Assembly (NCBI RefSeq): GCF_000308275.2
Contig: NZ_HG529490.1
Span: 771,695 to 835,694 of the forward strand
DNA length: 64,000 nucleotides
Source of the DNA: Levyella massiliensis
GTDB lineage: Bacteria; Bacillota; Clostridia; Tissierellales; Peptoniphilaceae
Direction: 5' to 3'
Part shown: in pieces, positions 5,499 to 29,433 of the stretch
How the letters are laid out: the number at the start of each line of letters is the position of its first letter
Numbering within the stretch: position 1 is the stretch's first letter
Notes under the pieces: generated by a model
What the model was told of the DNA's origin: nothing
The model's database searches: none
Seen by the model: the letters and a program-made list of their open reading frames with translations, nothing else
Position numbers and translations under genes: made by a program

Positions 5499-5520
5499 TA
5501 ACGTAAAAAAACCAACGAAA

Positions 5521-5550
5521 GGCGGCCCGACGGGCCGCCTTCTGCTTTTA
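5521..5550 (+). terminator. Terminator of pdxST; member of a dispersed G+C hairpin family
   Basis: GGCGGCCCG-A-CGGGCCGCC, a perfect 9-bp stem, is followed by TTCTGCTTTTA. The same stem and tail, continuing into CAACTGTCGG, recur at 7860, and related forms occur at 6052, 7930, 28913 and 29434, so this is also a dispersed repeat. Confidence 0.75.
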
Positions 5551-5635
5551 TCAACTGTCGGGCATTGCGCCAGCTCCTTTCTGGCGTTAGCGTCGACTCC
5601 TTTCTGGCGCTTGCGCCTGCTTCACTTGCCTGTTG

Positions 5636-5984
5636 CCCCAGGTTATTATTGATTTTCGCGTTTAACATGGGGTGCGGCGCTCACCTTTTCGCGCTTTTAT
5701 CCCATGTTATTTTCAAAATCAGTTTTTAACATGGGGCTCGATGCGTACATTTTTTTGCAATTCCCCCATGTTATTTTGAAGTTTCGGGTTTTAACATGGG
5801 GTGGCTCCGTGAGATCTAGCCCATGTTATTTGCAGAATCGCCTTTTAACATGGGGCTTTTCGACGATTTTGTAAAATTTTAACCCCATGTCATTTGCAGA
5901 ATAGCCTTTTAACATGGGGTATTTCATCGATTTTCGAGTTTCAGCACCCCATGTTATTTTCAAAATTCGCATTTTAACATGGGA
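5636..5984. repeat. Palindrome array A1: six 37-38-bp hairpins on a 64-bp period
   Basis: Units start at 5636, 5700, 5764, 5819, 5883 and 5947, spaced 64, 64, 55, 64 and 64. Each is CCCCATGTTA, a loop of about 17 T-rich bases, then TAACATGGGG. Spacers are about 26 bases and not random: each matches a spacer in array A2. With its flanks it fills the otherwise gene-free interval between pdxT and the nuclease-like gene. Short frames through it only read the repeat and are not believed to be genes. Confidence 0.9.
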
Positions 5985-6051
5985 TAAACCGTTGATATCG
6001 AGCATTTTCGCCGTCATTTCAAAAAGGAGCCGCCTCGGCGATAAGAAAGAC

Positions 6052-6080
6052 GGCGGCCCGTCGAGCCGCCTTCTGCTTTT
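6052..6080 (+). repeat. Dispersed G+C hairpin with T-rich tail
   Basis: GGCGGCCCG-T-CGAGCCGCC followed by TTCTGCTTTT, the same element as the pdxT terminator. It lies between array A1 and the 3' end of the nuclease-like gene, pointing towards the gene's end. It may end transcription coming through array A1. Confidence 0.6.
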
Positions 6081-6090
6081 AACCGTTTTT

Positions 6091-6912
6091 CTAGTCGATT
6101 GCACAATACCGCAGATGCTCACGGACTAGCGTTTCAACCTCTTCGATATCCAGAGGTAGGGCTTCCGTCTCCGCAGACACAATCAAATTTTTACCAACGA
6201 TAAAGTTGTGTTTCTGGTAATAGCGAATTTTTTGATGCGCTCGATTCTGATAGTCCGGATTCCCCATCATACCCAGATGCTCCCAATATAGCTCTTCGTC
6301 ATGTATCGCATCAAAGAAGGTAAAATCCGGATGAAAGATACGCGTGCCAACTTGTAATGGACATTCATATTTATAAACAATGTGATTGTCATAAAATAAA
6401 TCTGCCAAAATTTTTTCGCTCTTTGAACGTACGGTTTCTCCGTTTTTTGTACGATAAAAGGTGGCGCCCTGCGCAAAATTTAACGGCGTATAGGGTTTTG
6501 CTAACCATTCTTCCAGCTTTTCCCGTTTTGTACGCGTTATGTGTTGTACCAAAGGCTGCTTCGATACATCCATCATTTCGTAAGTCGCATCAATTTCTTC
6601 ATCGCTAAAATCACGACATAATGGAAGTAATTGCCGTAAACGCTTGCATATCAACCTGCTGATTCGTTGATCATACGATTGCTGTGCCAATCTCCTCGCT
6701 AAATCAAATTGCGACTTATCCAAGTATCTTCGCACCCTTCGATTCGTCTCCTTGTCATACCAGCAATGGTAATATTCCGGCGGATTACGCCGATGATCAA
6801 TTTCCAAATGGCCTTTAATTTTTGGCGACGGTTTCAGTTTTCGCCACAAGTCTTCATACTTTTCTAATAGATTTTGAAATATTGTTAGTGTTTCCACAGA
6901 TTCTTCAACCAT
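6091..6912 (-). CDS. PD-(D/E)XK nuclease-like protein of unknown role
   Basis: 273 residues. The N-terminal half (1-140) is charged and predicted helical, with no family I recognise. The C-terminal half carries an arrangement typical of restriction-endonuclease-like proteins: RSKSEKILAD (glutamate 166), HPDFTFF (aspartate 196) and YWEHLG (glutamate 211), then a basic helix with QKIRYYQKH. This is like the fold of Vsr and related nucleases. The start at 6912 has GGGAGGG six bases upstream. It sits alone between the two copies of the palindrome array. I infer DNA cleavage or nicking, but no substrate is known; inactivity or an RNA target is also possible. Confidence 0.7.
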   Translation of the reverse strand: MVEESVETLTIFQNLLEKYEDLWRKLKPSPKIKGHLEIDHRRNPPEYYHCWYDKETNRRVRRYLDKSQFDLARRLAQQSYDQRISRLICKRLRQLLPLCRDFSDEEIDATYEMMDVSKQPLVQHITRTKREKLEEWLAKPYTPLNFAQGATFYRTKNGETVRSKSEKILADLFYDNHIVYKYECPLQVGTRIFHPDFTFFDAIHDEELYWEHLGMMGNPDYQNRAHQKIRYYQKHNFIVGKNLIVSAETEALPLDIEEVETLVREHLRYCAID

Positions 6913-7101
6913 GCGCCCTCCCTGCGTGTTGCATCATAAACGCTACAAGACTGATTCCTCTCTACTCTTCTATTATTCCAAAGATCGAGAAAGCGCGAAT
7001 TCCATTTTTTGGTCATCACATTCCGTTTTATTGCATCACTATAGAGAACTGCCACATCGGATGCTGTCATATCGGGCGGTGCGCCGTATTTGTAACAAGG
7101 C

Positions 7102-7185
7102 GTGTCGTGGCTGTCTCATGGCGTGTCGTGGCTGTCTCAGGGAGTGTCGTGGCTGGCGCAGGGAGTGTCGTGGCTGGCGCAGCGG
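7102..7185. repeat. Four 21-bp tandem repeats
   Basis: Copies at 7102, 7123, 7144 and 7165 share GTGTCGTGGCTG followed by a variable 9-base end. They lie about 190 bases upstream of the nuclease-like gene. Frames reading through give only a short Val-Ala repeat, so I do not call a gene. The rest of 6913-7260 shows nothing I can name. Confidence 0.85.
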
Positions 7186-7265
7186 CTTTGAAGCGCTTAT
7201 AGCGACGATACCGCAAGATGTTTTGCAACTCGAATACGTTATAGGTGCCGTTTTGAACCGCTTTA

Positions 7266-7730
7266 CCCCATGTTATTTTTGATTTTCGCGTTTAGCATGA
7301 GTGGCGCAGCTGTACTTGACCATGTTATTTGCAGAATTCGCATTTAACATGGGGCGCGATGAATGAATTTTTTGGCTTTTACCCCATGTTATTTTCAAAA
7401 TCAGTTTTTATCATGGGGCTCGATGCGTACATTTTTTTGCAATTCCCCCATGTTATTTTGAAGTTTCGGGTTTTAACATGGGGTGAGGCAACCAAATTTA
7501 GCCCATGGTATTTGCAGAATCGCCTTTTAACATGGGGCTTTTCGACGATTTTGAAAGACTTTAACCCCATGTCATTTGCAGAATCGCCTTTTAACATGGG
7601 GCTTTTCGACGATTTTGAAAGACTTTAACCCCATGTCATTTGCAGAATCGCCTTTTAACATGGGGTATTTCATCGATTTTCGAGTTTCAGCACCCCATGT
7701 TATTTTCAAAATTCGCATTTTAACATGGGA
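7266..7730. repeat. Palindrome array A2: eight hairpins, duplicate of array A1
   Basis: Units start at 7266, 7318, 7382, 7446, 7501, 7565, 7629 and 7693, mostly 64 bp apart with one 55-bp step at the same place as in A1. Arms are CCCCATGTTA/TAACATGGGG with a few single-base changes. Spacers match A1 in order, for example CTCGATGCGTACATTTTTTT, and the shared sequence continues past the last unit to about 7780. A2 has two extra units, one an exact tandem duplication (7565 and 7629). The arrays therefore arose by segmental duplication around the nuclease-like gene, followed by local expansion. Confidence 0.9.
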
Positions 7731-7859
7731 TAAACCGTTGATACAGGGCATTTTCGCCGTCATTTCAAAAAGGAGCCGCCTTCGGCGGCAATTGATACGA
7801 TAAGGTGCGCTGCTTATGTGACGCAGTTTGTAAGCCGCCTTCGGCGATAAAAAAAAGAA

Positions 7860-7888
7860 GGCGGCCCGATGGGCCGTCTTCTGCTTTT
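7860..7888 (+). repeat. Dispersed G+C hairpin with T-rich tail
   Basis: GGCGGCCCG-A-TGGGCCGTC followed by TTCTGCTTTTACCAACTGTCGG, near-identical to the pdxT terminator including 12 bases after the T-rich tail. It lies after array A2. Confidence 0.6.
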
Positions 7889-7929
7889 ACCAACTGTCGG
7901 CCTGCAGCCGACATTTTATGTTTACGAAT

Positions 7930-7944
7930 CGGCCCGTCGGGCCG
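7930..7944 (-). terminator. Hairpin after the TldE-like gene
   Basis: CGGCCCG-T-CGGGCCG, a perfect 7-bp stem, lies eight bases beyond the stop of the leftward TldE-like gene. There is no T-run on the minus strand, so termination is uncertain; it is another member of the dispersed hairpin family. Confidence 0.4.
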
Positions 7945-7952
7945 CCCTCTGC

Positions 7953-28966: not shown

Positions 28967-28999
28967 TGCTTCTGGACAATGCGACGCAACGACGTGTAG

Positions 29000-29358
29000 C
29001 GGCTAGGTATTTTTTGATATACGGTTTTTACCTAGCCGACAATCGCAGTCGATCGCCGTGCGGCGGCTAGGTATTTTCCCATATACGGTTTTTACCTAGC
29101 CGAAATACGCCTTGCAACGCCGTGCGGCGGCTAGGTATTTTTCCTTATACGGTTTTTACCTAGTCGGAAATCGCCTTGCTGTGCTATGCGACGGCTAGGT
29201 ATTTTTCTATATACGGTTTTTACCTAGCCGAAACACGCCTTGCAACGCCGTGCGGCGACTAGGTATTTTTCCATATACAGTTTTTACCTAGCCGAAATAC
29301 GCCTTGCAGTGCCATGCGGTGGCTAGGTATTTTCCCGTATTCGGTTTTTACCTAGCCG
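29000..29358. repeat. Palindrome array B: six 39-bp hairpins exactly 64 bp apart
   Basis: Units start at 29000, 29064, 29128, 29192, 29256 and 29320, an exact 64-bp period. Each is CGGCTAGGTA, a 19-base T-rich loop (for example TTTTTCCATATACGGTTTT), then TACCTAGCCG. The 25-base spacers are similar to each other (consensus near AAATACGCCTTGCAACGCCG) but with changes. Arm sequence is unrelated to array A, yet hairpin size, loop length and period are the same. The array fills the gene-free stretch between the reductase gene and the lipoprotein gene. Confidence 0.93.
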
Positions 29359-29433
29359 AATAACGCACACAGGTGCCACAAGTCCATTAATGAAGCCCGG
29401 CTCCGCCGGGCCTTTGTAAATGAAATTAAGGAA

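Follow-up and report, generated by a model that had tools for sequence, protein, structure and literature searches.

In type III toxin-antitoxin loci (ToxIN type), a cognate repeat array lies beside a small nuclease gene. Closer to the case described here are the repetitive extragenic palindromes (REPs) and their REP-associated tyrosine transposases (RAYTs): a cluster of REPs of the same flavour lies beside each enzyme gene, and a single gene has been proposed to act in trans for many copies (PMC3116915; PMC8266576). The homing endonuclease I-Bth0305I is described as a long multidomain protein that dimerises on a target just short of 60 bp (PMC3943268). In the present study, a 64,000-nucleotide stretch of Levyella massiliensis (contig NZ_HG529490.1, positions 771,695 to 835,694; hereafter the window) was found to contain a PD-(D/E)XK nuclease-like gene lying between two arrays of palindromic units, A1 and A2. 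The balance of the evidence leads us to lean, if only slightly, towards reading this gene as the trans-acting nuclease partner of mobile, geneless palindrome arrays, a pairing REP/RAYT-like in function and unrelated in origin.

The arrays A1 and A2 had been described, in a sequence-only reading of the window, as duplicates of one another, with ~50 bases past the last unit shared as well. This proved correct, as direct alignment gave 86% over 336 columns (5655-5986 against 7337-7667), and a longer alignment (427 columns, 5626-6040 against 7372-7787), which covers the ~50-base tail, gave 80%. The arms counted at the locus numbered 12 and 14, compared to a maximum of 7 in 224 shuffled flanks. The nuclease-like gene is the sole substantial gene between the two arrays, so that the word solitary, used of it earlier, holds locally; it does not hold genome-wide, since the genome (G000) contains six family members, the window gene (L001) and five paralogues. 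All six adjoin an array, with six different arm sequences, and L005 is also bracketed by two arrays, like the window gene. At L006 only two units are found, while its orthologue L027 is accompanied by 15 arms of identical sequence, and the L006 orthologues in Murdochiella massiliensis (G003) and Murdochiella sp. Marseille-P8839 (G004), which are 91-97% identical, adjoin the L006 arm sequence too. The first observation is confirmed, and it is larger than first described.

A homologue scan of bacterial and archaeal genomes yielded at least 519 relatives, from which 80 loci were kept, mostly from Lachnospiraceae (Butyrivibrio and others) and Murdochiella relatives; many bacteria of the gut and vagina carry the family. 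Arrays were scored as the number of 10-mers found on both strands at most 1.5 kb from the gene, and were termed strong at a score of at least 8. The loci usable for scoring numbered 86 (112 minus 10 records that were nearly duplicate or came from the same locus, and 16 whose flank was shorter than 1 kb), and the 224 shuffled flanks derive from all 112 loci. Strong arrays were present at 43 of the 86 homologue loci, compared to none of the 224 shuffled flanks and 1 of 71 stretches more than 2.5 kb away; at a score of at least 6, the corresponding counts were 58/86, 4/224 and 3/71. The strong arrays were positioned upstream of the gene at 30 loci, downstream at 8 and on both sides at 5, which makes bracketing by two arrays, the arrangement noted earlier at the window gene, the exception. 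Homologues were not, as a rule, far from arrays, nor had they lost E166, D196 or E211, and the counts indicate that the association of gene and array is not accidental.

The presence of dispersed arrays followed that of the cognate gene. The exact pattern CATGTTA-N15-20-TAACATG gave 50 matches in G000, forming 11 arrays, and none in four sister species, in which the window paralogue was not found. The pattern of a second family gave 41, 10 and 8 matches in three sisters with the cognate gene and none in two genomes without it, and that of a third family 87 and 67 matches in two genomes with the gene and none in three without. Units and gene agreed in 15/15 cells (three families by five genomes: 50/0/0/0/0; 0/41/0/10/8; 0/0/0/87/67), and the reversed control patterns gave no matches in any of the three five-genome searches. 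Absences are weaker in G002, which is 87% complete, and in G001, where a 36-residue remnant most like L032/L033 occurs with no exact third-family units, the gene was scored as absent. By a simple frame caller, the window-family arrays lay between convergent genes at 7 of 9 fetched sites and between tandem genes at 2, with none between divergent genes, and the 18 sites of the second family in G003 comprised 7 convergent, 10 tandem and 1 divergent. The nuclease copy L033 (G004:C12:4740-5519) has one in-frame TAG, yet its genome holds 67 exact units of the family; the gene may be in decay and its arrays orphaned.

In a tree of 105 proteins (those below 230 aa left out), close relatives have arms in common, and arm agreement averaged 9.0 of 10 bases at protein identities of at least 80% (7 pairs), compared to 5.3 below 40%. 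The Mantel correlation between proteins and arms was 0.27, and 0/2000 permutations reached the observed value. This run excluded L019, because the high-scoring array neighbouring it belongs to another family; with L019 included, 6/7 pairs at or above 80% identity agree, and in the discordant pair (L018/L019) L019 still has an array of its own type, in diverged form. An unplanned check was provided by G066, a control genome in the pattern search, where a three-unit TAGGCAG array was found to adjoin a 267-aa frame that is a nuclease, 88-90% identical to those of L057 and L080, both of which have TAGGCAG-type arms. Judged from these comparisons, the arms are specific to each paralogue, and many arrays, mostly intergenic, occur in genomes with the cognate gene and not in the tested genomes without it.

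Two further loci bear on arm specificity and array make-up. A broken nuclease copy (L036/L140, G001:C1:632522-633249), which matches L018 at 66% identity in its N-terminal piece and at 88% in its C-terminal piece, adjoins an array whose arms differ (GATGGTGG); this hints that arm specificity may reside in the N-terminal part. In G003/G004, at L176 and L177, a single mosaic array combines two related families, with CCCTGAY and CCCTGGCT arms.

Mobility was assessed on syntenic sites in the sisters, a comparison that covered 3 of the 6 G000 sites, and on array copies within genomes. The neighbours of the window gene, L004 and L002 carry names from our own reading of the translations, and we take them to be pdxT, tldE, dnaX, ldh and a radical S-adenosylmethionine (SAM) gene. 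The pdxT-tldE interval contains no nuclease gene in G001, G003 and G004 and has a geneless array of another family instead. The dnaX-radical SAM interval in the sisters also contains no nuclease gene, with arrays of one to three other families (the interval is 99 bp in G002), and the interval between ldh and a major facilitator superfamily (MFS) gene, which holds L002 and an array in G000, measures 25-185 bp in G001, G003 and G004. Gene-free syntenic sites thus exist, and intergenic hot spots are common to different families; no event of gene copying was seen.

In Butyrivibrio proteoclasticus P18 (L057), the palindrome of the gene occurs at seven further sites, all intergenic according to the frame caller, with half-sites ~27 bp apart, and in three other genomes of the Butyrivibrio search 5/8 units were intergenic. 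Four geneless P18 arrays are 96.6-98.4% identical over 364-429 bp in 6/6 pairings and lie in unrelated flanks, which means that arrays move without the gene. One end of the four copies agrees within a few bases and the other differs by as much as one unit; a target duplication abutting the ends is not visible (words common across the ends were 5-6 nt at most, none abutting both ends). Because of the variable end and the lack of a visible target duplication, copying by repair fits better than a classical transposase. The P18 copies demonstrate, as far as sequence can, that whole arrays were copied recently to new sites. The mobile unit is not the 1.6-kb gene unit that had been suggested, as what has demonstrably moved is a geneless array of ~0.4 kb; the proposed RAYT-like link of gene and array is upheld, being general in the family, specific to each paralogue and connected with mobile arrays.

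The arrangement of the units was informative as to the form in which the arrays act. Modal unit spacings in 45 arrays were 42-44, 52-55, 63-65, 73, 81 or 84 bp, and 44/45 of these deviate by no more than 2 bp from a multiple of 10.6, the exception being L023 (81). Same-strand spacings between the classes numbered 3 at 46-51, none at 56-61, none at 66-72 and 1 at 74-80, and unit spacings cluster near whole helical turns, at 42, 53, 64, 73, 84 and 94 bp. Arrays with two mixed spacings display a difference of about one turn (54/64, 53/63, 73/83, 84/94). As related arrays have the 53-54 bp spacing in common, the p value against uniform spacing was set aside. A long-long-short-long-long order was observed in 10/11 window-family arrays (not in L195), and the sequence of the spacers was not kept. 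Changes in the arms were single in 281 cases and compensatory in 21, and the single changes resulted in G.T (83), A.C (77) and other mismatches (121), counted on the strand of the gene for gene-adjacent arrays and of the contig for dispersed arrays. The near-whole-turn phasing and the mostly uncompensated, strand-symmetric arm changes favour protein-bound duplex DNA over folded hairpins, the substrate that had been suggested earlier.

The protein encoded in the window comprises an N-terminal helix, a three-stranded sheet and a long helix (residues 1-112), followed by a catalytic domain (~150-270) with E166, D196 and E211. Of the family proteins, 109 reach 200 aa or more (some ten of these records are duplicates or nearly so); E166 and D196 are conserved in 109/109 of them and E211 in 108/109, with one gap. 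The ratio of non-synonymous to synonymous substitution rates (dN/dS) was 0.01-0.23 in 11/11 pairs of close relatives, indicating purifying selection, and the gene is therefore maintained. The AlphaFold model of the window protein is confident, with a predicted local distance difference test (pLDDT) score of 95.5. Foldseek searches with it returned no solved structure at E < 0.001, and with a second aligner (VIA) the catalytic-domain model ranked I-Bth0305I first (Z 8.5, 93 residues, 3.0 A), further matches including Bax1 (Z 7.8) and TnsA (Z 7.4). The N-terminal domain had no confident match in the fold searches; the idea of an integrase-type arm-binding domain gained no support from them, and XisI/XisH-like matches were too weak for use.

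The window protein matched no family in Pfam, NCBIfam or PHROGs (DUF790, at E 0.008, was below cut-off), searches of PDB sequences gave nothing credible, and a scan of viral contigs with this single protein as query, which reaches close relatives only, gave no match. Plasmid records yielded 9 matches, none spanning 80% of the query and mostly within genes annotated as AAA ATPases or helicases, and three unannotated "Bacteriophage sp." contigs were matched among phage records (best E 4e-21 over 77% of the query). On its own, the nuclease domain also gives a match (E 4.7e-29) to the C-terminal end of the candidate defence helicases PADLOC PDC-S68. No Pfam transposase was common to a set of 69 family members, a single stray OrfB_IS605 match being returned by one member (E 0.06).

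The features of the window are collected in the following table.

Array, gene and repeat features of the window, in window positions
Feature	Position	Strand	Description
Array A1	5638-5982 (listed span 5636..5990)		6 palindromic units, arms CCCCATGTTA / TAACATGGGG, 8-nt core arms with 17-18 nt between
A1 spacer order			L L S L L, with 39 or 29 bp from one arm start to the next
Stretch following last A1 unit, ~50 bases	5983..6040		Recurs after A2
Nuclease-like gene	6091-6912	-	273 aa, PD-(D/E)XK
Array A2	7268-7728 (listed span 7260..7735)		A1 copy; 7 full units and a decayed first unit; one additional 64-bp unit
Geneless array, another family	28996-29362		Arms GGCTAGGTA / TACCTAGCC, 6 units, 64-bp period

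A tile scan of the 64-kb window (score of at least 8) revealed the last of these, at 29000-29359, as one further array of a different family. Its arms are a near-match to those of paralogue L003 (TACCTAGTCG), which is located ~0.79 Mb off on the same contig (G000:C1:12860). The gap between the gene and A2 contains four 21-bp direct repeats (GGCGTGTCGTGGCTGTCTCA-like) at 7096-7181, and other short dispersed palindromic elements (GGAGCGCCGC..GCGGCGCTCC, GCCGGCC..GGCCGGC and GCCGCCTTCGGCGGC) were observed at 5519-5549, 6048-6080 and 7774-7950. The latter elements also occur at L018, L019, L126-L131, L162 and L177, with hot spots in common with the arrays and a variable tandem number.

For the reading of the gene as a trans-acting partner of geneless arrays, we infer DNA binding, cutting and a copying step, which could be connected as follows. 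Protein dimers would bind each palindromic unit on double-stranded DNA, and the near-whole-turn spacing would hold neighbouring units on one face of the helix, giving an ordered nucleoprotein array. The nuclease might then nick or cut DNA, and repair copying from an array would put an array-sized patch into another intergenic site. On this view, A1-gene-A2 would have arisen when an array was duplicated next to its cognate nuclease gene, or was copied into that position.

Several observations weigh against this reading. Half of the scored loci (43/86) were under the array threshold, which counts against a strict rule, some of them having short or decayed arrays, and arm conservation drops quickly below 80% protein identity. 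The reversed control pattern matched once in the Butyrivibrio search, in G066, and 3/8 units in the three Butyrivibrio-type genomes other than P18 lie inside short frames (97-123 aa). No clean pre-insertion site for a single array was identified between G003 and G004 or among the Butyrivibrio genomes; the L162/L172 difference looks like a deletion in G004, and the flanks of the Butyrivibrio arrays are rearranged in relatives. The 21 compensatory changes exceed the ~1.4 expected from a crude independence estimate, making some pairing constraint or arm-to-arm conversion possible. Finally, a DNA-binding role of the N-terminal domain is a guess, as this domain is without a confident structural match.

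The phased arrays would also be expected if they were chromosomal nucleoprotein sites with a function for the cell (organisation of the fold, or control of supercoiling or transcript ends), in which case the protein would be mainly a sequence-specific binder, and the arrays would have spread by ordinary recombination and been kept for their function. The near-whole-turn phasing, the 6-8 units and the conserved spacer order are in line with this, as are the placement at gene ends (7/9 convergent and 0/9 divergent sites for the window family, 1/18 divergent in G003) and the purifying selection on the gene. However, the catalytic residues, which a pure binder would not need, are kept, and the several paralogues per genome, with different arms and with gain and loss between sisters, look selfish rather than housekeeping, making such a function unlikely. 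Homing is a second route to the structure of the locus: the nuclease would cut geneless arrays of its own family, and repair from the gene-bearing array would import the gene, resulting in array-gene-array. The comparison with a homing-type nuclease, made already from the sequence alone, is reasonable because the best listed match of the catalytic-domain model is a homing endonuclease (Z 8.5 over 93 residues by VIA), and the gene is bracketed at L001 and L005 (5/43 array-positive loci overall). Spread of the gene by homing is nevertheless disfavoured and appears distinctly improbable, since each family has one gene and many geneless arrays, so that the gene is the non-spreading part, and no other G000 paralogue adjoins the window arms.

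A role in anti-phage or abortive defence, with the arrays restraining or aiming the nuclease, could be connected with the PDC-S68 match of the nuclease domain and with the diversification of arms between paralogues. The neighbours of the window gene, L004 and L002 look, however, like ordinary genes and not like defence islands, and the dispersed geneless arrays are left unexplained, which makes defence more doubtful still than homing. Least probable of all is that the array is transcribed and acts as a structured RNA, either an antidote as in type III toxin-antitoxin systems or a guide RNA. Antitoxin arrays are found upstream of and cognate to the toxin gene, and the arrays described here are likewise often upstream of the gene (30/43) and cognate to it. 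Against an RNA stand the arrays downstream (8/43), on both sides (5) or at geneless sites, the equal numbers of G.T and A.C changes, beside 121 other mismatches and with no G.U strand bias, and the helical phasing, for which RNA offers no reason. Moreover, no Rfam family reached the gathering score over the gene-adjacent arrays of 12 loci, where sub-threshold matches overlap the L004 and L005 arrays; the matches above the gathering score near the loci were transfer RNA, signal recognition particle RNA and Clostridiales-1, none of them on gene-adjacent arrays. The Clostridiales-1 match at L039 (7574-7731, 113.8 bits) lies ~3 kb downstream of a family member, with a sub-threshold match alongside (7774-7883).

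Returning to the gene as a trans-acting partner of geneless arrays, we put at about even the chance that this represents an undescribed class of bacterial mobile-repeat system. In it, a genome would carry several PD-(D/E)XK nucleases, each recognising a duplex sequence of its own, which would assemble on helically phased palindrome arrays and spread them in trans through intergenic DNA by cut-and-repair copying, in evolutionary independence of REP/RAYT, the specificity of nuclease and array coevolving so that paralogues ignore each other's arrays. Among the papers listed from open-licence literature without preprints, none seemed, judged by title and opening of the abstract, to deal with such a nuclease-palindrome-array system, and an earlier description is possible, as most subscription papers fall outside this scope. 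If the proposal is true, dispersed palindromic repeats that have their own enzyme originated on two or more occasions, from proteins unrelated to each other, and many families of this type are present in common gut bacteria. Studies of changing DNA specificity would gain a ready set of nuclease-site pairs, and the movement of short arrays that have neither fixed ends nor a transposase would have an explanation open to test.

Compared to other described systems, the locus has partial likenesses. TnsA of Tn7 belongs to the same nuclease superfamily by fold (Z 7.4), but no TnsB/TnsC partner lies beside the window gene (its pdxT- and tldE-like neighbours are conserved in order in the sisters), and neither transposon ends nor a target duplication were seen. 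The likeness to I-Bth0305I, an EDxHD homing endonuclease, is that it is the best structural match of the catalytic domain and that its target of just under 60 bp is close to one 54-64 bp unit; here, however, no intron or intein was recognised, and the gene is rarely copied whereas geneless arrays are. With type III toxin-antitoxin loci the locus has in common a cognate array adjoining a small nuclease gene, but the signature favours DNA over RNA, and the arrays lie on either side of the gene and are also dispersed without it. A CRISPR array has direct repeats on one strand with unique spacers, whereas here half-sites alternate in orientation and one array may contain spacers that resemble each other (L039, L040). 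Insertion sequences and miniature inverted-repeat transposable elements have fixed ends with a target-site duplication; the four recent copies agree at one end and differ at the other, and no word common across the ends abuts both. The likeness is greatest to the REP/BIME elements with RAYT (TnpA-REP) and to REPINs, which are likewise dispersed extragenic palindromes in alternating orientation with a matching flavour at the enzyme gene, different for each enzyme. The enzyme here is nevertheless a PD-(D/E)XK protein (by its residues in 109 proteins, the modelled fold resembling I-Bth0305I and TnsA), whereas RAYT is an HuH/Y1 tyrosine transposase; the 11 window-family arrays have no GTAG or CGTC foot, their arms being mostly bordered by ACC/GGT; and the units appear to be duplex-phased and are seen to move as whole ~0.4-kb arrays, in contrast to the folded single-stranded REPs. 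Lacking an HuH/Y1 enzyme and, in the window family, the GTAG foot, the system is not a member of REP/RAYT, though it follows the same logic, and within the open-licence literature we rate the system as new by its components and analogous to REP/RAYT by its function.

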